Source: Anaerococcus jeddahensis (GTDB lineage: Bacteria; Bacillota; Clostridia; Tissierellales; Peptoniphilaceae). From it: 64,000 bases of DNA. Below the pieces are notes generated by a model, which was not told where the DNA came from, did not search any database, and worked only from the letters and a program-made list of their open reading frames with translations. Made by a program: the position numbers and the translations under genes. Every line of letters starts with the position of its first letter. Positions within the stretch are counted from its first letter, which is position 1. Shown here piece after piece: positions 5,062 to 48,219 of this stretch. Location: assembly GCF_001182725.1 (NCBI RefSeq), contig NZ_CWHU01000004.1, positions 285,506 through 349,505 of the forward strand, read 5' to 3'.

Positions 5062-5147
5062 TAGGTAGAGTAGGGCTAAGGCGTTAAGTGCTAGAAAATG
5101 GGATGTTGTTTCTAGACGAAAGATTTTAGTCCGCATCCGCTACATCA
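5062..5147 (+). promoter_or_regulatory. Tetrahydrofolate (THF) riboswitch, folT type
   Basis: The segment carries the conserved THF aptamer pieces in order: GGTAGAGTAGG, GGCGTTAAGTGC, ATGGGATGTTG, a CTAGAA/TTCTAG helix, a CGAAAGA loop, and GTCCGCATCCGCTAC closing the outer helix with GTAG. This class binds reduced folates and typically controls folate uptake or synthesis. A small ATCAT/ATGAT hairpin and a second CTACC copy (about 5164-5169) before the AGGAGG site could form the expression platform. The next gene is a folate ECF transporter subunit. Confidence 0.9.
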
Positions 5148-5184
5148 TTTCCTATGATGGCAGACTACCAAATAGGAGGAAAAA

Positions 5185-5733
5185 ATGAAAAATTTAAAGA
5201 ACATCAGAACTTTGATTTTGCTTTCATTTTTTATAGCATTATCAATCGTAGTTTCAAGATTTTTTTCTATAACTACAGTAAGTCGAAAAATCGGTCTAGG
5301 TTTTATAATAACTGCAGCAATGTGTTCACTTTTTAACCCATCTCTTGCAGTCCTTGCATCAATCATAATTGATGTGGTTTCAAACCTGATTTTCCCAACA
5401 GCTGGAGGATTTTACTTGCCTTTCGTGACAACAAAAATCTCCTCAGCCTTAATCTATACTTTCTTTTTCTATAGAAAAGAAATAACAAGGAAAAACATAG
5501 TATTTTGTACGATTTTAAATTCACTTGTCACAAGTTTATTTCTAAACACCCTATGGACTAGCCAACTAACTGGCAATCCATTTGCGGCTCAATTTGCGAT
5601 GAGAATACCAACCATGGCAATAAACTTTGTATTTCACACCATAGTTTTAATAATAATCTTGCCAAAACTTGCAAATATTTTAAGAAGAGAAATAAAAAAA
5701 TTGGGAGCCCAACCAGAAAACGCTCCTTATTAG
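5185..5733 (+). CDS. folT: Folate-family ECF transporter S component
   Basis: Substrate-binding membrane subunit of an energy-coupling factor transporter, 182 residues with about six hydrophobic spans, typical for S components. The N-terminal segment RTLILLSFFIALSIVVSRFF and the central IIIDVVSNLIFPTAGGFYLPF match folate-type S components. It works with a shared EcfT/EcfA module that is not in this window. The ATG has an ATAGGAGG site. The THF riboswitch directly upstream independently supports folate as substrate. A small membrane-protein gene follows 9 bp later. Confidence 0.92.
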   Translation: MKNLKNIRTLILLSFFIALSIVVSRFFSITTVSRKIGLGFIITAAMCSLFNPSLAVLASIIIDVVSNLIFPTAGGFYLPFVTTKISSALIYTFFFYRKEITRKNIVFCTILNSLVTSLFLNTLWTSQLTGNPFAAQFAMRIPTMAINFVFHTIVLIIILPKLANILRREIKKLGAQPENAPY

Positions 5734-34535: not shown

Positions 34536-34588
34536 TTGACAAAAATTTCTCATTTTATATAATGGAATTGATAATAGTTATCGTTATC
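34536..34588 (+). promoter_or_regulatory. Near-consensus promoter with Fur-like box
   Basis: TTGACA at 34536-34541 and TATAAT at 34558-34563 (16-bp spacer) are followed 6 bp later by GATAATAGTTATCGTTATC (34570-34588). That matches the classical 19-bp Fur box at 15 of 19 positions. The box would cover the transcription start. It drives the 91-residue membrane protein gene. Confidence 0.7.
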
Positions 34589-40322: not shown

Positions 40323-40829
40323 ATGGATGATAGAAATTTAATAAAAGGAATCAAAAACAAAGATGAAAAATATTTGATTGAATTCATTAACCTTTATGGG
40401 CCTATATTAAAAGGAGTTATTGTAAAAACTATAGGAAATAGGAGAAATATTCTAGATGAAATTTTAAATGATGCTCTCCTTGGAATTTGGGATAATATAA
40501 ATTCTTATGATCCTAATAGGTCATCTTTTAAAAATTGGTGTGCAGGAGTTGCCAAATACAAGGCAATTGATGCCATTAGAAAAGAAGCAAAACACGACTG
40601 CCTTGATCTTGATGATATTTCAGGTTTTATTTATGATAAAAATTTAGAAAATTATGATGAAAGCGAAAAAATTCTTGAAATGTTGTCAAAAAAAGACAGG
40701 GAGATTTTCAAAAAATTATTTATAGAAGGCTATTCCTACGATGATTTAGAAAAAATTACAAAAATCCCAAAAGACAGACTCTACAACAAAGTTAGCCGTG
40801 CCAAAAAAACTTTAAGGAGCAAATTATGA
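40323..40829 (+). CDS. ECF-type RNA polymerase sigma factor
   Basis: 168 residues. Region 2 (about 10-80) includes DEILNDALLGIWDNINSYDPNRSSFKNW split over conserved turns and the -10-binding helix VAKYKAIDAIRK. Region 4 (about 115-165) has SKKDREIFKKLFIEGYSYDDL and RLYNKVSRAKKTLRSKL as helix-turn-helix. The AAAGGAGG site is strong. Overlaps the next gene by 4 bp (ATGA), the usual sigma/anti-sigma arrangement. The signal is unknown. Confidence 0.92.
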   Translation: MDDRNLIKGIKNKDEKYLIEFINLYGPILKGVIVKTIGNRRNILDEILNDALLGIWDNINSYDPNRSSFKNWCAGVAKYKAIDAIRKEAKHDCLDLDDISGFIYDKNLENYDESEKILEMLSKKDREIFKKLFIEGYSYDDLEKITKIPKDRLYNKVSRAKKTLRSKL

Positions 40830-41815
40830 AAAATATCTATGACAAAATAAATGATATGGATTTTGAAATTGAAAAAATCGAATTAAACGATTTTGAAAAA
40901 GAAAAATTAATAAAAACTGCAAAATCCTACAGAAAAAATCAAAAATCAAAAAAATTTTTACCAATAGCGGCTGCATTAATCCTAGTAGCTGGACTTAATA
41001 TTCCAATTGTAAAAGCCGAAGTTTCAAAATTTACAACAGACATAAAAGTAACAATGATGGAAGCCTTTGGTGCAAGTCCTGATTCCTACAAATATATGGC
41101 AGAAATTAATAAACCAGTAACAGTTGGAGAAGATTCATTTGTAATCGGAAATATAGCCTTTGAGGATAATAAAATCTTTATAAATACCCTAAGAAATGGA
41201 GAAAATTTTAAAGAAAATACAAAAAACAATTCAAATTTGTATAAGGTGGTAGTTGATGGAAAAGCTTATAAAGCTATTGGCTCATCAGGAAGCGAAGGTT
41301 TGTTAGAAGATAAAAAAACATCATCAGAAAATCTTATGATAAATTTTGACAAATCTTTTCCAAAAAAAGATAAGACGAGCGTAGATTTATATTTTGCAGA
41401 TGCAAATAAAAGCCAAATAATTTCAATAGAATCCCCAATGAATACAATAAACGAAGACAACAAAATTTTCGCTGAAAATTTAAAAATAAAAGGAACAAAC
41501 GCCACGATTTCATTAATGAAAATAAATCCAATGACCCTTACAGCAACAATAAAAAATCTCGATCAAGCCTATGTTTACGAACTAAAAGGAGTTGACGAAA
41601 AAGGAAATAAAATTTCTTTAGATGAAAGAGTCAAAGATGAAAATTCAACAACTTTTATCTACAACAAAGATTTCTCAGACCTAAGCCTAGATGAAATAAA
41701 AGACGGAAGAAATTTTAATTTTACTCTAAGCCGTTCAAAAATGAATGAAAATTCTGGCAAAGAAAGTGATGGCAACTTTGAAAAATTTGCAGAATTTACA
41801 TTAAGTGCAAAATAA
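40826..41815 (+). CDS. Membrane anti-sigma-type protein (DUF4179-like)
   Basis: 329 residues. A cytoplasmic N terminus (1-45) could bind the sigma factor. One transmembrane span follows at about 46-62 (FLPIAAALILVAGLNIPI). An extracytosolic domain begins with VKAEVSKFTTDIKVTMMEAFG, resembling DUF4179 anti-sigma proteins. Translational coupling to the sigma gene supports an anti-sigma role. A two-way terminator follows. Confidence 0.85.
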   Translation: MKNIYDKINDMDFEIEKIELNDFEKEKLIKTAKSYRKNQKSKKFLPIAAALILVAGLNIPIVKAEVSKFTTDIKVTMMEAFGASPDSYKYMAEINKPVTVGEDSFVIGNIAFEDNKIFINTLRNGENFKENTKNNSNLYKVVVDGKAYKAIGSSGSEGLLEDKKTSSENLMINFDKSFPKKDKTSVDLYFADANKSQIISIESPMNTINEDNKIFAENLKIKGTNATISLMKINPMTLTATIKNLDQAYVYELKGVDEKGNKISLDERVKDENSTTFIYNKDFSDLSLDEIKDGRNFNFTLSRSKMNENSGKESDGNFEKFAEFTLSAK

Positions 41816-41831
41816 AATTTAATTTTAAATA

Positions 41832-41875
41832 AAAAATTCCTCAAAATGAAATTAATTCATTAAGAGGAATTTTTT
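41832..41875. terminator. Bidirectional terminator
   Basis: AAAAATTCCTC and GAGGAATTTTT arms with an inner ATGAA/TTCAT stem, between the anti-sigma gene and the convergent reductase-like gene. Confidence 0.85.
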
Positions 41876-41878
41876 ATT

Positions 41879-42565
41879 TTATTTGGCTGATGCCCTTTGA
41901 AGTTTCATATTTCTTTTTCTCAATCTTAATACTATATAAGATGCATATATGATAGTATATACAATTATCCCTAACATATTATCCTTCACATTAGCAGAAT
42001 ATAGTACCATAACATGAATATATATGCCTATAAAAAATGGATACGCCATTTTTTGTAAATTTTTCCAACTTTTAGCCTTCATTTTACGACGTACTGCCTT
42101 AAAAGAAGTTATAAAAAGAGGAATTAGCATCAACAATAAAAATATTGTTATTATTGATGCAATTAATTGTCTTGTAGGCATAGAACTAGGATTTGTAAAT
42201 AGGATTGGGAAATAGTGTAAACCAAATATTATATTGTGGCTGAAAACCAATATACTTGCTATTATAGATATTTCCCCACGAATAGCCATCAATTTTTTTG
42301 AAAAATCATTGTGCTTTGTAACAGTTCCTAAAAACATTACTATCATAAAAGTCGCTGTAGCAAAAATCCCCCTTGAAAATATCTTCATGAAATATTCATT
42401 AAACCAAGCTGGGAAATTTCTATCAAAACCCATATTATAATAATAAACTACAAGTCCTGTCCAAACATATATACCTACATAAAATGCGACAGGATATTTC
42501 TTAATCAAATTAGCTGTTAGACTATAAAAAATTATAGTAAACAGGATTCCAGTAATTAAATTCAT
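41879..42565 (-). CDS. Ferric-reductase-like haem membrane protein
   Basis: 228 residues with about six spans, resembling the ferric-reductase-like/MsrQ-YedZ fold. Candidate haem ligands are H110 in LVFSHNIIFGLHYF and H184 in IYIHVMVLY, with H117 nearby. RGE at 96-98 and SWKNLQKMAYPFF at 166-178 fit the family pattern, where the LQ is usually LH; the second haem-ligand pair may thus be incomplete. It lies 27 bp after the multi-FMN surface protein, with an AAAGGAG site, so the two are co-expressed. Likely passes electrons across the membrane to the flavins. Electron donor unknown. Confidence 0.75.
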   Translation of the reverse strand: MNLITGILFTIIFYSLTANLIKKYPVAFYVGIYVWTGLVVYYYNMGFDRNFPAWFNEYFMKIFSRGIFATATFMIVMFLGTVTKHNDFSKKLMAIRGEISIIASILVFSHNIIFGLHYFPILFTNPSSMPTRQLIASIITIFLLLMLIPLFITSFKAVRRKMKAKSWKNLQKMAYPFFIGIYIHVMVLYSANVKDNMLGIIVYTIIYASYIVLRLRKRNMKLQRASAK

Positions 42566-42592
42566 ATTTTTCTCCTTTCTATATATAAAAGC

Positions 42593-45500
42593 CTATTCTT
42601 CTTTTTTAGTAGAATCTTTTGCCTTATCAGCTGCAATTGGCTCTTCTTTATTTTTTAAAGGAGACAACTGAGGATTTTGCGTGCTTTGAATGTTTTTCAA
42701 ATCAGGTTTTTTTTCGGATTTTTCCAACTCTTTATTGCTAGAGTTTTTATTTGATTCATTCTTATTAGCATCTTTCCTATTTTCTACAGAAGAGTTTGTA
42801 GAAGATTTTTCTTGCAATTTCTTAACAGAATTTGCCTTGATCTCTTCCTTTTTCTTTTGAGATTTTTGATTCAAAGACCTAACTTCTTGATTTTCTTTTT
42901 TAACAGCTTTTTTCACTACTACCATTACATAAGCTTCTCCTACTTCTTTTGCATTTTTCGTTTTAAATTGTAGGACTACTCTTTGTGGATCTTCGCTTAC
43001 TTTGCTATAGTCTGGTTCTTTTTTGAAGCCTACTTCTACTGAACCGTCTTTTGGTATATTTGAGAATTTTGCTTTGTATTCTTCTAGGCTTGGAGCTTTG
43101 CCGTTAACTATTATTGCTTGTGTGTTAGCTCTTTGTGGTGTAAATTTTTCACCTTTATCATTTTCATCAGCATCTGCTAATCCATCTCTGTCTTTATCTC
43201 TATAAACCCAATATTCAATTGTTCTTACTAAAAGCTTGTCGCCTTTTTCTGCCTTGAATTTTAGTTTGATTGTTTTGACACCATTTTCTGGCCATTCTTC
43301 GTCACCTATTTCTGGTGTTCCACTTATGGTTTTTCCGTCAAATGTTATACCTTTTGGCAAGCCTTCTATTTCTGGTAGTATATTTGCACCATCTAAAAGA
43401 CTTGTTACTGTGGCTGGTCTTATTGATCTACCTTCTAACCATTGTTGTCCATTTGATTCCATCAAGCTTGTGTCGATTACTTTTTGGTCTACTTCTATTT
43501 CTTTTTTAACAGCTTTCCTTACTATTACCAGTAAATAAGTTTCTCCTACTTCTTTTGAATATTTTGATTTGAATTGTAGGACTACTCTTTGTGGTCTTTC
43601 ATTTACTTTGCTGTAATCTGGTTCTTTTTTAACGCTTACTTCTACTGAACCGTCTTTTGGTATATTTGAGAATTTTGCTTTGTATTCTTCTAAGCTTGGA
43701 GCTTTGCCTTCTACTATTATTGGTTGTCTATTTGAGAATGTAGCTGTGAATTTTTCGCCTTTATCGTATTCTTCGTCATCGGATATGCCATCTCTGTCTT
43801 TATCTCTGTACAACCAATATTTGATTGTTCTTACTAAAATCTTATCGCCTTTTTCTGCCTTGAATTTTAGTTTGATTGTTTTGAAGCCACTTCCATCTTC
43901 TGGCCATCCTTCGTCACTTCTTTCTGGAGTGCCTGATATGGTTTTTCCGTCAAATGTTATACCTTTTGGCAAGCCTTCTATTTCTGGCAATATATTTGCA
44001 CCATCTAAACGACTTGTTACTGTTGCTGGTCTTATTGCTTGACCTTCTATCCATTTTTGTCCACTTGATTCCATCAAGCTTGTGTCGATTACTTTTTGGT
44101 CTACTTCTATTTCTTCTTTTGCTTGTGGTTTTTCATTTTTAGCAGCTTTTTTTACTACTACCATTACATAAGCTTCTCCTACTTCTTTTGCATTTTTCGC
44201 TTTGAATTGTAGGACTACTCTTTGTGGAACTTCGCTTACTTTGCTATAGTCTGGTTCTTTTTTGAAGCTTACTTCTACTGAACCGTCTTTTGGTATATTT
44301 GAGAATTTTGCTTTATATTCTTCTATGCTTGGTGCTTTGCCATTAACTATTATTGGTTTTCCATTAGCTCTTTGTGGTGTAAATTTCTCGCCGTGATCTT
44401 TATCGTCATCGTCGGATATGCCATCTCTGTCTTTATCTCTGTAAACCCAATATTCAATTGTTCTTACTAAAATCTTGTCGCCTTTTTCTGCCTTGAATTT
44501 TAGTTTGATTGTTTTGAAGCCACTTCCATCTTCTGGCCATCCATTATAGCTCGGTTCTATTGTTCCTGATATGGTTTTACCATCAAACGTTAGGCCTTTT
44601 GGTAGTCCTTCTATTTTGCCAACTATTTTTGCTTCCGAATCAAGACTTGTTACTGTAACCGGTCTTATTGGCTGACCCTCTATCCATTTTTGTCCGTTTG
44701 ATTCCATCAGGCTTGTATCGATTACTTTTTGGTCAACTTCTATTTCTTCTTTTACTTGTGGCTTTTCATCTTCTTTTTGTCCATTTTCTTTTTCTTCTAC
44801 TAAATGTTTATCTGATTCTTTTCCAGATAGTTCGAATTTTGCATATACAATCTTTGGTAAGTTTGGATTATCCCCTTCTAATAATTTATATTGAAGTTCT
44901 CTATTTACAGGCAATTTATCTGTTGTATATTCATAGCGATTACCCTTCTTTGATACTAGACGGATTTTAACTTTTTCAAATTCAAATGATTTTGGAGCAT
45001 CAATTGTTTGGTGGCTTGCTATATTACGACTATCTGCATAATCCATATCAACCTTATCTAACTTGTACCATTTTTTACCGTCAGCACTATATTCTAAGCC
45101 GATTATATAATCTTCACTATAGTTTCCAACTAATATTCTGAAGTCATCATAAGATAATGATTTTTCGTGAACTACTTTTGCCTTAATAATTTTAGCATCA
45201 CCATATTTTTTTAGATTATCTCCATTTTCAATTGTTTTTCCATCTTCATCTTTTATACTGATTCCGTTAGCTTGGAAATCTTTCCATTTTACTTCTTTGA
45301 AGCTTCCATCTTTCTTTGTAACTTTTAATTTAAGCTCAGAAAAATCAACACCGTCGCCCTTATTTACTTCTATATTTTTGTTTTTAGGCTTTATTATTGA
45401 AATTTCTTTTACGTCAGTATTTGTTTTGTAATCATTTGAAGATTTTTCTGCTGCTTCTCTCGTTGCTGCTGAAATTCCACTTGCACTTACAGTTGCTCCT

Positions 45501-47533
45501 GAAATGCTATCGAATAATTCTTTTGAACCGTAACGGTTTGACATATATGCTTTTACAATTCTTGAAAGTAAAGTTAAGTCTGATTCTGAATTATCTCCTC
45601 TAAATCCTCTTAAATGATCTAGATAAGATCTTCCAAATAATTCAGCTACTTTTTCTTTAGGATTTTTGCTATTTCTAATTGTTTCAAAATATTCTCTATA
45701 AAGTCCCATTTTTGCAATATTTAATCTACCTTCTTTGCCCTTTAGGAAGGAAAGTACTTTTTCTGCTTTTTGTCTAAATGGTCCCATATCATCGCCATAT
45801 TCTGATTTTAAGCCCACCTTGATATTTGAGATTTCTCCATTTTCAACTTTTATATATGTTCTTGTCTTTTTAGTATTAATATAACCAACGCCCCAACCTG
45901 TATATTCTCCATCTTTGAGTGGTTCGGTGTTGTAATATTTTTTAAGTGCATCATCTATATTTTCTTCAGGTTTTTTACCTGGTTTATCATCTGGTTTTCT
46001 GTCAGGATTTTCATCCGGTTTAACATCTGGTTTTTTATCTGGTTTTGAAGGATTAGTTTCTCCACCAGCTTTTGATACTGCATCGTTTACTGCATTTATT
46101 ATTCCTCTACTTGAAAATGTTGCTTCTGATACTGTATCTACGCTCTTTCCTGGTTTGCCTAATATTTTTGATATTACGCCTTTTGCCTTGGCAAAGTATG
46201 AGCCGTCTTCTTTGTGGGATAGGATTTCTACCTTTGTTATTGAACCCTTTGATATGGTTACTCTAACTTTTATTGGTCCGTTAAAGCCTTCTGATGTTCC
46301 TTCGTAAATACCATCTTTTAGCTTTTTATTGTTTTTACCTATTCCAATAGAATTTCCTGTTTTCTTATTTTTGCCCGCTTTATTATTTTTTGAAGGGCTA
46401 GGTTTTTTTGTTTTTGTTTGTTTTACCTTTTGATTTTTTGAGCCTGCTTTTGCTATTGCATTGTTTACTGCATCAATTATTCCCCTACTTGAGTATGTTG
46501 CACCAGATACTGTATCAACACTTTTTCCTGGTTTGCCTAGGATTCTTGATATAACACCTCTTGCTCGACTAAAGTATGGATTATCATCACTATAAGATAG
46601 GATTTCTATATTTTTTATTACTCCATTTGCTATGGTAACTCTTACGCTTATAGGGCCATTGTATCCTTGACCTGAACCCGTATATACTCCGTCTTTAAGG
46701 TCTTTGTTTCCTATTGTAACGCTTCCTGCAACATTTCCTCTTCTATTATTAGCATTTGATGAATTGTTTACAGCTTGCACCTTGGCTTGTTGTTTTGAAC
46801 CAGCCTTTTGGATTGCGTTAGCTACTGCCATTTTTAATGCATTTGATGATATGGTAGCTCCCGAAACTGAATCTACATTCACGCTTCCTGTACTTAGAAT
46901 TTGATTTATAACTGCATAGGCTCTTCTAAAGTATGCTGGAGTTTCATTTTGAGAAACAACGTTTATTGCACTTATTTTTCCATTTTTTATGGTTACTTTT
47001 ACAGTTAATGCTCCACCATATCCATTTGCACTACCAAGATATTCACCATCTTTTAAGCCTTCTACTTTTTTGGTGTCTTTCTTTTTGGTTTTTTCTTTTA
47101 TTTTTTCCTTAGATCCAGCTTTTTGTAGAGCTTTTGCTACAGCATCTTTTATGGCATTTGATGATATGGTAGCTCCTGAAACTGAATCTACATCTACGCT
47201 TCCTTTTCTTAAAATTTCATCTATTACTGCTAGGGCTTTCTTGAAATATTCCTCTGTTTCATTTTGGGATATTACTTTAATGTCTGTTAATTTTCCATTT
47301 TCAATGGTTATTCTAACAGTCAACAAGCCACCGTAACCTTCTGAACTTGCTTCATATTCTCCGTCTTTCAGATCTTTCGAAACACGGATAGTTTCATGAA
47401 TATCTTTGTCCTTTTTGCCCTCATTGAGCTTATTATTTTTTTCTAATACAGACATTGACGATCTTATAATAGCTACAGATGCTGCACCTACAATAAAAAT
47501 TGCCAATACTTTTTTCAAAAATGTATTTTTCAT
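42593..47533 (-). CDS. Giant surface flavoprotein with five FMN-binding domains
   Basis: 1646 residues. An N-terminal membrane span (8-28) has no lipobox. Four compact FMN_bind domains begin at about 54, 158, 278 and 404, each LKDG-Y-G---G--G to SGAT-SS. A longer fifth lies at about 538-695. The attachment threonines are predicted at T122, T227, T346, T472 and T681. The fourth motif reads SEAT, not SGAT. Residues 705-910 look like Ig-type and coagulation-factor-type strands. Three near-identical ~200-residue repeats (930-1131, 1141-1343, 1345-1545) carry GLPKG-TFDGKTISG and a DKDRDGI calcium-type loop. The Lys/Asn/Ser-rich tail lacks a sortase motif. A Fur box lies upstream. Covalent FMN needs an ApbE-type transferase elsewhere. 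Confidence 0.85.
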   Translation of the reverse strand: MKNTFLKKVLAIFIVGAASVAIIRSSMSVLEKNNKLNEGKKDKDIHETIRVSKDLKDGEYEASSEGYGGLLTVRITIENGKLTDIKVISQNETEEYFKKALAVIDEILRKGSVDVDSVSGATISSNAIKDAVAKALQKAGSKEKIKEKTKKKDTKKVEGLKDGEYLGSANGYGGALTVKVTIKNGKISAINVVSQNETPAYFRRAYAVINQILSTGSVNVDSVSGATISSNALKMAVANAIQKAGSKQQAKVQAVNNSSNANNRRGNVAGSVTIGNKDLKDGVYTGSGQGYNGPISVRVTIANGVIKNIEILSYSDDNPYFSRARGVISRILGKPGKSVDTVSGATYSSRGIIDAVNNAIAKAGSKNQKVKQTKTKKPSPSKNNKAGKNKKTGNSIGIGKNNKKLKDGIYEGTSEGFNGPIKVRVTISKGSITKVEILSHKEDGSYFAKAKGVISKILGKPGKSVDTVSEATFSSRGIINAVNDAVSKAGGETNPSKPDKKPDVKPDENPDRKPDDKPGKKPEENIDDALKKYYNTEPLKDGEYTGWGVGYINTKKTRTYIKVENGEISNIKVGLKSEYGDDMGPFRQKAEKVLSFLKGKEGRLNIAKMGLYREYFETIRNSKNPKEKVAELFGRSYLDHLRGFRGDNSESDLTLLSRIVKAYMSNRYGSKELFDSISGATVSASGISAATREAAEKSSNDYKTNTDVKEISIIKPKNKNIEVNKGDGVDFSELKLKVTKKDGSFKEVKWKDFQANGISIKDEDGKTIENGDNLKKYGDAKIIKAKVVHEKSLSYDDFRILVGNYSEDYIIGLEYSADGKKWYKLDKVDMDYADSRNIASHQTIDAPKSFEFEKVKIRLVSKKGNRYEYTTDKLPVNRELQYKLLEGDNPNLPKIVYAKFELSGKESDKHLVEEKENGQKEDEKPQVKEEIEVDQKVIDTSLMESNGQKWIEGQPIRPVTVTSLDSEAKIVGKIEGLPKGLTFDGKTISGTIEPSYNGWPEDGSGFKTIKLKFKAEKGDKILVRTIEYWVYRDKDRDGISDDDDKDHGEKFTPQRANGKPIIVNGKAPSIEEYKAKFSNIPKDGSVEVSFKKEPDYSKVSEVPQRVVLQFKAKNAKEVGEAYVMVVVKKAAKNEKPQAKEEIEVDQKVIDTSLMESSGQKWIEGQAIRPATVTSRLDGANILPEIEGLPKGITFDGKTISGTPERSDEGWPEDGSGFKTIKLKFKAEKGDKILVRTIKYWLYRDKDRDGISDDEEYDKGEKFTATFSNRQPIIVEGKAPSLEEYKAKFSNIPKDGSVEVSVKKEPDYSKVNERPQRVVLQFKSKYSKEVGETYLLVIVRKAVKKEIEVDQKVIDTSLMESNGQQWLEGRSIRPATVTSLLDGANILPEIEGLPKGITFDGKTISGTPEIGDEEWPENGVKTIKLKFKAEKGDKLLVRTIEYWVYRDKDRDGLADADENDKGEKFTPQRANTQAIIVNGKAPSLEEYKAKFSNIPKDGSVEVGFKKEPDYSKVSEDPQRVVLQFKTKNAKEVGEAYVMVVVKKAVKKENQEVRSLNQKSQKKKEEIKANSVKKLQEKSSTNSSVENRKDANKNESNKNSSNKELEKSEKKPDLKNIQSTQNPQLSPLKNKEEPIAADKAKDSTKKEE

Positions 47534-48042
47534 CTTTCCTCTTTATAAAAATATATTTAGGTTATAAGGTACCTACTCCTTTTGATTTTTAGATAAAAAA
47601 ATCTTAAATATAATTTTCGAGTATAAACTCTTTTTCTTTAAAATAAGTTCATTAACCTATTTTAAAAGTGATGAATTTTTAGAGATTCTTCGAATTTTGT
47701 TTTTCAAAAATTCTTCTAAAAAATTCGGTTTTAAGATTTGATATTGGTAAAAATAACTATAACTTTTCTAGTTTTATGGCAAATTTTCAAAAATAACTAA
47801 ATGGATCTTGTTATTATTAGTCTTTTGCATAAATATTTTTATCTTATCAAAGGTTTTTTCCGAATAAATACAAATCCAAATTATTATAAATAAATCTTTA
47901 GCAATTGATTTTATTCGTTTTCAGCTATATTTTATCCTATATCAATTATTTATTTTTTCACATCTACTCCTTTCTAAAAAATTTCTTTTTTCCTAAAACT
48001 TTTTGTGAAAAAGTTTTACTTTCAATAATGATAATCACTATC
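47534..48042 (-). promoter_or_regulatory. Long Fur-controlled 5' leader of the flavoprotein gene
   Basis: About 500 bases between the predicted transcription start and the ATG. It is AT-rich and holds no convincing gene. An AGAAAGGAGTAG site followed by a three-codon frame (GTG AAA AAA TAA) lies at about 47960-47977, and a similar AAAGGAGTAG recurs near 47570. No known riboswitch pattern is recognised. The rest of the gap to 48260 holds the promoter and the nrdB terminator. Confidence 0.4.
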
Positions 48043-48077
48043 CATTCAATTATACAAAATAGTTTTTAAAAAAACAA
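48024..48077 (-). promoter_or_regulatory. Fur-box promoter of the flavoprotein operon
   Basis: On the minus strand TTGTTT (48077-48072), a 17-bp spacer and TATAAT (48054-48049). The site AATAATGATAATCACTATC (plus strand, 48024-48042) lies 6 bp downstream and matches the 19-bp Fur consensus at 17 positions. The same 6-bp geometry occurs at 34558-34588. Confidence 0.8.
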
Positions 48078-48171: not shown

Positions 48172-48219
48172 AAAACTGACTCAAAAGTTAGTTTTTTTCC
48201 TAACTTCTGAGTCAGTTTT
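48172..48219 (-). terminator. Terminator of nrdB
   Basis: AAAACTGACTCA and TGAGTCAGTTTT are perfect 12-bp arms, with an inner GTTAG/CTAAC-type stem, followed on the minus strand by T-run. Confidence 0.85.

Follow-up and report, generated by a model that had tools for sequence, protein, structure and literature searches.

In the 64,000-nucleotide (nt) stretch of the Anaerococcus jeddahensis genome analysed here (the window; all coordinates count from its position 1), two genes lying 27 nt apart on the minus strand form a unit that encodes a large surface protein with several flavin mononucleotide (FMN)-binding domains and a small membrane partner. Both open frames lie exactly at the coordinates given in Table 1. 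With about even confidence, we take this unit to be an iron-starvation-induced, wall-spanning flavin relay for which ferric iron is the likeliest acceptor. New here are the order of two types of short FMN_bind domain (beads of type A, then of type B), the DTVSEAT sequence at the fourth flavin site, a PF01794-negative, STEAP/NOX-like partner with Gln in place of a His, and fusions of this partner to FMN_bind.

Table 1. Features of the unit and its borders, in window coordinates
Feature	Position	Strand	Basis
Terminator-like hairpin 3' of nrdB	48172..48219	-	20-pair stem and T tail
Promoter: TTGTTT (48077-48072), 17 nt, TATAAT (48054-48049)	48049..48077	-	by eye
Fur-type box GATAGTGATTATCATTATT, just 3' of the -10 element	48024..48042	-	score, shuffles, seven other genomes
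Unusually long leader, ~490 nt	47534..48023	-	aligned upstream regions
Multi-FMN surface protein, 1646 aa	42593..47533	-	open frame, Pfam
Hydrophobic N-terminal segment, residues 5-27, membrane anchor or signal	47453..47521	-	hydropathy
FMN bead 1, type A, DSVSGAT, predicted flavin at T122	47117..47365	-	Pfam, motif, tree
FMN bead 2, type A, DSVSGAT, predicted flavin at T227	46802..47050	-	Pfam, motif, tree
FMN bead 3, type B, DTVSGAT, T346	46445..46693	-	Pfam, motif, tree
FMN bead 4, type B, non-canonical DTVSEAT, T472	46067..46315	-	Pfam, motif, tree
Long-insert FMN_bind domain, DSISGAT, T681, C-terminal limit approximate	45434..45913	-	Pfam, motif, model
Immunoglobulin (Ig)-like segment, about residues 707-902	44828..45415	-	model, Foldseek
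Surface repeat 1, DKDRDGISD loop	44105..44737	-	direct repeats
Surface repeat 2, DKDRDGISD loop	43493..44104	-	direct repeats
Surface repeat 3, DKDRDGLAD loop	42902..43492	-	direct repeats
Charged C-terminal tail without LPxTG	42596..42901	-	
Membrane partner, 228 aa, ferric-reductase-domain-like; H85, H110, H184, Q171	41879..42565	-	open frame, NCBIfam, fold model, alignments
A+T-rich inverted repeat between partner and convergent gene 40826-41815	41827..41879	.	arms 92% complementary

The surface protein and its membrane partner

Five stretches of the surface protein match FMN_bind (Pfam PF04205) above the cut-off, with E 1.4e-71, and two more match He_PIG. It thus carries more than one FMN_bind domain in a single chain, as do ApbE-dependent multi-flavinylated proteins, and its closest solved chain is 8p2b, domain 1 of a Clostridiaceae FMN4 protein (phmmer 7.3e-12). 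The five domains of the initial annotation are all present, but they are not alike: four are short beads (residues 57-139, 162-244, 281-363 and 407-489), and the fifth, from residue 541 to about 700, is divergent and holds an insert of roughly 60 residues, as judged by eye. The Ig-like segment beyond it consists mostly of strands in the structure model (predicted local distance difference test score, pLDDT, of about 70-93 over the block), and its best compact Foldseek match is 2l7y, a putative surface protein (probability 1.00, E 0.011). The surface repeats with loops that had been proposed were recovered as three direct repeats spaced 606-633 nt from start to start, each with one DKDRDG[IL]xD sequence (residues 1033, 1244 and 1446); the number of repeats differs among orthologues. 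No cysteine and likewise no CxxCH haem motif occurs among the 1646 residues. A multihaem conduit was ruled out by the lack of cysteine, and sortase anchoring was ruled out as the surface protein has no LPxTG-like match. A different arrangement is seen in Anaerococcus tetradius (L051, L052), where long-insert-type FMN domains recur inside the Ig/Rib arm, two of them (by motif) on the contig of the partner; there the arm itself seems to bear flavins along its length.

Covalent flavinylation of the surface protein is predicted from its motifs. The canonical D-x-x-[ST]-G-A-[ST] is present at sites 1, 2, 3 and 5, and because bead 4 carries DTVSEAT the protein of this strain has four canonical sites rather than sites for the five flavins first proposed. 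The acceptor Thr is kept in all five Pfam domains. Comparable departures from the motif Gly are seen in the B beads of Finegoldia magna (DTVSQAT twice, DTVSTAT once) and in a Eubacteriales metagenome-assembled genome (DAVTNAT). Since a Gly-to-Ala replacement in another protein lowered flavinylation to about 50%, according to the accessible part of PMC12052999, the sites without Gly may be flavinylated poorly or not at all.

When 41 short beads taken from 12 proteins (31 of the 41 rows being different, and partly near-copies) were placed in a maximum-likelihood tree, this separated an A type (n = 19) from a B type (n = 22) with support of 100/98; the labels had been set after a first tree and were re-tested on this partly overlapping set of beads. 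In all 12 proteins A beads come first and B beads always after them, and the long-insert domain follows the short beads in 11, the corresponding stretch of Anaerococcus vaginalis PH9 being unreadable. Motifs without Gly were confined to the B type (five of 22 beads, as compared with none of 19 A beads). The motif by which beads were collected required A-T after the Gly position, and the collection therefore presupposes conservation of the Thr and would miss beads that lack A-T. This fixed order of A beads, B beads and long-insert domain, as read from the sequences, is the most interesting new result of the analysis.

The partner has no Pfam match above cut-off (best E 0.06), and PF01794, the family by which MsrQ-like systems are defined, does not match it at E up to 1. 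NCBIfam yielded a partial match to the MamZ C-terminal model (2.9e-8, 32.6 bits; model cut-off 650). Partial, below-cut-off matches to the same model were obtained with six of the eight homologues given, and homologue L109 has a below-cut-off match to MsrQ PRK05419 (2.3e-6). An AlphaFold2 model of the partner (predicted template modelling score 0.65) was re-aligned with known structures, and the 15 rows with Z of at least 8 belonged to STEAP1, STEAP2, STEAP4, SpNOX, NOX5, DUOX1 and cytochrome b561. The top match, STEAP1, reached Z 11.1 over 176 aligned residues (root-mean-square deviation 5.0, identity 14%), a range in which, by the warning of the tool (Z under about 13), a common helical arrangement alone may be reflected; the argument for the fold is thus the agreement among these families and the sequence models. 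Taken together, the partner resembles the ferric-reductase-domain fold, in line with the label it was first given.

Which residues of the partner could bind haem was judged from 24 homologues, a set that leaves out three close Anaerococcus rows. H110 and Q171 are invariant (24/24), H184 is kept in 18, and H85 occurs in ten, namely those that directly adjoin a large multi-FMN gene of the type found in the window. It is missing from a sister branch (G179, G339, G202 and the second copy in G444) with other FMN genes nearby, some of which have several motifs. In an alignment with Escherichia coli MsrQ, where a region of the form W-x-x-L-[HQ]-x-x-x-Y is shared with weak scores, H184 is paired with one MsrQ His and Q171 with the second, also weakly (probabilities of 9 and 12). 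The aligned His residues of MsrQ bind haem. From the pattern of Q171 and H184 in this alignment and among the homologues, at most one haem site is expected in the partner, with H110 and H184 as the candidate ligands. The haem suggested at the outset thus retains two candidate His residues, but no ferrochelatase was found in the genome (see below). In a sister branch of the partner (L110, L111, L113 and L114) Gln replaces H184 and both small and larger proteins with FMN motifs are encoded nearby; the haem site may be lost or changed in them.

Promoter, leader and borders of the unit

In the promoter upstream of the surface protein gene, the TATAAT is shared by six genomes whose upstream regions were aligned; the -35 element is weak and does not appear in the list of a consensus scanner. 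The Fur-type box is the top-scoring 19-mer of the 64-kb window, with 17 of 19 positions matching a Fur consensus. Significance was expressed as the share of dinucleotide shuffles of each upstream or intergenic region that reached the score of its box. None of 200 shuffles did so in six Anaerococcus genomes (that of the window and five relatives, which are not mutually independent), one of 200 in F. magna and three of 200 in A. tetradius, where the box sits between the -35 and -10 elements. A Fur-type box thus precedes the orthologous gene in all eight Anaerococcus/Finegoldia genomes that have the pair, and its conserved place on the promoter makes the unit a predicted member of the Fur regulon.

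In the genome of the window, which encodes three FUR-family proteins, twin boxes flank a TATAAT ahead of feoA-feoA-feoB (assigned by Pfam), their score being reached by none of 300 shuffles. These sites came from a genome-wide search with up to three mismatches that returned 17 rows, some of them one place on both strands, against 11 in a reversed control. Since the pattern had been written from the window's own site, that site necessarily has zero mismatches. Three rows had two mismatches; two of them are the feo twin sites, the only ones relied on here, and the remaining one falls within an open frame. Fourteen further upstream regions were scored: shuffles reached the score in five of 300 cases for G443, where the partner has no FMN neighbour, in 21 of 300 for G339, and in 45 to 300 of 300 for the other 12. 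The Fur control proposed in the initial annotation is thus well supported within the Anaerococcus/Finegoldia branch but was not seen elsewhere; in the genome of the window, the boxes before feoAAB resemble that of the unit in geometry. The second-best Fur-type place of the window (34570-34588, 16/19) lies 5' of V-type ATPase genes and 3' of a fructose-bisphosphatase gene, and may be due to chance.

The box starts 509 nt from the start codon in the window; this distance is shorter in F. magna (88 nt) and longer in A. tetradius (843 nt). The long leader can be aligned across six Anaerococcus genomes. No Rfam family reached its gathering score in it, and a riboswitch or other known RNA was dropped on these grounds, as was a short GTG-AAA-AAA-TAA frame after the box that is not conserved in Anaerococcus hydrogenalis.

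At its 5' border the unit is set apart from nrdAB (identified by Pfam) by the terminator-like hairpin. At the 3' border, the inverted repeat, which does not appear in the list of the terminator scanner, is probably a terminator common to the partner and the convergent gene. The latter encodes 329 residues without a Pfam match and is followed by a sigma-factor gene. This plus-strand pair (40323-41815), a sigma-70-type factor and a 329-residue neighbour with one hydrophobic segment by eye, is kept beside the unit in five other Anaerococcus genomes and is not found there in F. magna or A. tetradius. Farther away, a T-box leader reaches its gathering score at 1693-1879 on the minus strand, and at 5064-5733 on the plus strand a tetrahydrofolate riboswitch lies ahead of an energy-coupling factor (ECF) S component that Pfam names riboflavin-type. 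On account of this riboswitch the S component (5185-5733) was dropped as a source of flavin; it is probably a folate transporter.

Distribution and genome context

A scan of genome contigs with the partner alignment returned ten loci, in A. vaginalis PH9 and ATCC 51170, A. hydrogenalis, Anaerococcus ihuae, Anaerococcus obesiensis, A. tetradius, F. magna, two Parvimonas and the Eubacteriales metagenome-assembled genome. In all ten a gene with FMN_bind motifs stands directly 5' of the partner, although this gene is cut by contig ends in A. tetradius, interrupted by N in PH9 and broken in its first frame in Parvimonas oral taxon 393. The partner was found in eight of 61 relatives, each again with such a gene directly 5' of it, and in seven of the 31 genomes of the genus, the window's own included. 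At class level, 19 matches were obtained in 16 of 391 genomes: four are fused to FMN_bind (L106, L107, L109, L112), ten adjoin a gene with FMN_bind motifs and five do neither, one of these being a broken gene. The fused state of L109 and L112, like the FMN neighbour of L100, was confirmed by Pfam; the FMN part of L106 was confirmed by NCBIfam RnfG models, and L107 was assigned by motif only. An ApbE gene adjoins L107. The surroundings of fusion L112 include genes for DUF6110, a heavy-metal P-type ATPase and FeoB, the last of them one gene away and on the opposite strand, and the lipoprotein encoded just before the fusion has a sub-threshold match to a Shr-type haemoglobin-interacting model (20.9 bits; cut-off 22.3). 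Viewed as one neighbourhood (L112:3133-10833), the genes for FeoB, the lipoprotein, the fusion, DUF6110 and the ATPase form what we take to resemble a ferrosome locus.

The genome of the window is 98.98% complete in five contigs, so single absences are fairly safe though not certain. It encodes the ApbE on which the proposal of covalent flavins had been made to depend, a single protein (E 3.8e-70) with a lipobox-like N-terminus that could attach FMN to the surface protein. Elsewhere in the genome FMN_bind was detected (E up to 0.001) only in one 185-residue frame, which lies inside an rnf-like cluster by eye. UbiA was not found in the genome, with 14 of 14 controls positive, nor was Peripla_BP_2, with 13 of 14; in the NEAT search no control was positive. 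FAD_binding_2 (PF00890) gave only N-terminal fragments covering 30-49 of 414 positions, and a flavinylated fumarate- or urocanate-type reductase was rejected as acceptor for this reason.

A proposed flavin relay and its alternatives

From these observations we infer flavinylation, haem, direction, acceptor and donor in the following way. Iron starvation would switch the unit on via the Fur-type box on its promoter. Electrons would pass through the membrane by way of the partner, with the help of either a flavin or a single haem b placed between H110 and H184. They would then travel down the row of FMN beads, which would lie close to the membrane, and would leave from the long-insert domain, where the arm begins, or from a point farther out. 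The arm itself may reach outward or hold the wall. The acceptor would most likely be ferric iron, either as a chelate or within a host haem protein; the ferrous product would enter via FeoAB, the genes for which have Fur-type boxes similarly placed on their promoter. Ferric reduction feeding FeoB is a likely function. As quinol is unlikely to be the donor, a cytosolic flavoprotein or Rnf are the candidates.

It is tempting to extend the relay model to a directional flavin wire, in which bead types and long-insert domain, arranged in the same outward order across several anaerobic Firmicutes families, presumably have graded potentials and are driven without quinone by a ferric-reductase-fold protein that is invisible to PF01794 and possibly carries a single haem. 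In Anaerococcus and Finegoldia this wire would be a Fur-controlled ferric reductase that serves FeoB in the absence of classical siderophore or haem uptake by ATP-binding cassette (ABC) transporters. We regard this extension as doubtful. Of two multi-flavinylated proteins made and studied, one is reported to have its three flavins at the same potential of -184 mV (PMC10339131, in its accessible part), which cautions against assuming graded potentials.

Several observations weigh against the relay as an iron reductase. The system appears dispensable, since 24 of the 31 genomes of the genus gave no match to the partner. An iron role may not extend to the family as a whole, because no significant box precedes the pair in either Parvimonas genome (score reached by 72 and 174 of 200 shuffles), in the Eubacteriales metagenome-assembled genome (89/200) or in G288 and G444 (300/300 each). 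Moreover, feoA has a further TTGACT/TATAAT pair nearer to it that lacks such a box (by eye), so feo may not be wholly under Fur-type control. As for the partner, its model has a pLDDT of only 71, its best Foldseek match, STEAP1, has E 0.21, with none at or below 0.001, and H184 is replaced in six of the 24 homologues, by Gln in five and by Tyr in one. Ferrochelatase was not found in the genome, with eight of 14 controls positive, and haem would thus be scavenged or unused. Finally, bead 4 lacks the motif Gly, and so do three of the six sites in F. magna.

One alternative is an iron-sparing electron sink: when starved of iron, the cell would get rid of reductant via an iron-free flavin chain to an acceptor outside, such as quinones or flavins from neighbouring cells, oxidised thiols or metabolites, and iron uptake would not be the purpose. 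Control by a Fur-type box fits this explanation equally well, relatives without a significant box keep the pair, and an iron-sparing argument for flavinylation is made in the accessible part of PMC8238504. We consider it unlikely: no acceptor enzyme with PF00890 was found in the genome, one homologue is encoded near FeoB and a metal P-type ATPase, and the partner itself may need haem iron. Improbable, though compatible with an organism that seems unable to finish haem, is a reduction of haem or haemoglobin at the surface: the arm would bind a host haem protein, whose ferric iron the flavins would reduce, setting haem or iron free. The sub-threshold Shr-type match near L112 would fit, but the surface protein lacks Cys and CxxCH and no Peripla_BP_2 was found in the genome. 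Less probable again is a membrane-level redox protein coupled to Rnf, in which RnfG feeds the beads and the partner serves as a second outlet or in another role. The genome does have an rnf-like cluster with an FMN_bind subunit, and RnfG gave the best, though below-cut-off, NCBIfam score of the surface protein; against this, the fusion of the partner domain to FMN_bind in four of 19 matches argues for electrons passing directly from one to the other. That the protein is mainly an adhesin or wall scaffold with structural, largely unflavinylated FMN_bind domains, as the Ig/Rib/He_PIG-type arm, the Gly-to-Glu/Gln/Thr/Asn changes in B beads and the variable repeat number might suggest, is very improbable given the acceptor Thr in all five Pfam domains, the motif Gly in 19 of 19 A beads and the conserved pairing with the membrane protein.

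The proposed flavin relay belongs to a kind of system that has been described. The initial annotation regarded the architecture as unfamiliar, but multi-flavinylated proteins (2081, with up to 13 sites), MsrQ-like partners defined by PF01794, clusters with wall-binding Rib/SLH proteins, links to iron and Fur-repressed flavinylation clusters all appear in the accessible part of PMC8238504, and the present unit is a variant of this kind. Like the published proteins (PMC8238504, PMC10339131 and PMC11334425, as far as accessible), it has more than one FMN_bind domain with ApbE motifs outside the cytosol, an arrangement found particularly in Gram-positives. Clusters with Rib/SLH proteins are part of this likeness, as are the beads-on-a-string models proposed for such proteins in PMC11334425. 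In contrast to what these parts of the three papers describe, the surface arm is fused into the same chain, two bead types stand in fixed order with a long-insert domain between beads and arm, control is of Fur type and the partner is unseen by PF01794; a like architecture may sit in their data files. No publication on this unit was found in a search of titles and abstract beginnings that covered Anaerococcus and F. magna but few subscription papers.

MsrQ and MsrQ-like systems share with the unit a protein with several transmembrane segments beside or fused to FMN_bind. They differ in having a PF01794 match, and the partner has Gln171 where MsrQ has the His of its L-H motif, lacks an NAD domain and is found in a genome in which no UbiA for a quinol donor was detected. 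STEAP provided the best fold match, at a Z value inside the stated noise range for helical bundles, and differs by its low identity and by the absence of a cytosolic oxidoreductase domain from the partner. STEAP carries a single haem, which one kept His pair of the partner would fit. Flavin-based extracellular electron transfer of the Listeria type uses, as the unit is predicted to, an ApbE-flavinylated extracytosolic carrier in a Gram-positive cell, with ferric iron as a possible acceptor. That system needs quinone and uses Ndh2/EetAB; here a ferric-reductase-fold partner takes the place of the latter, and quinone is unlikely, as the UbiA expected for its biosynthesis was not found in the genome.

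Although multi-flavinylated proteins are common, their role is described as unclear in the accessible parts of PMC8238504 and PMC11334425. The present unit offers a tractable case: it consists of two genes with a predicted inducing signal and a predicted transporter downstream, FeoB, its bead count differs from strain to strain, and its internal order predicts potential steps that can be measured. If the proposed relay is true, it would also show a way in which iron may be acquired by the opportunistic anaerobic cocci that live on human skin and mucosa.

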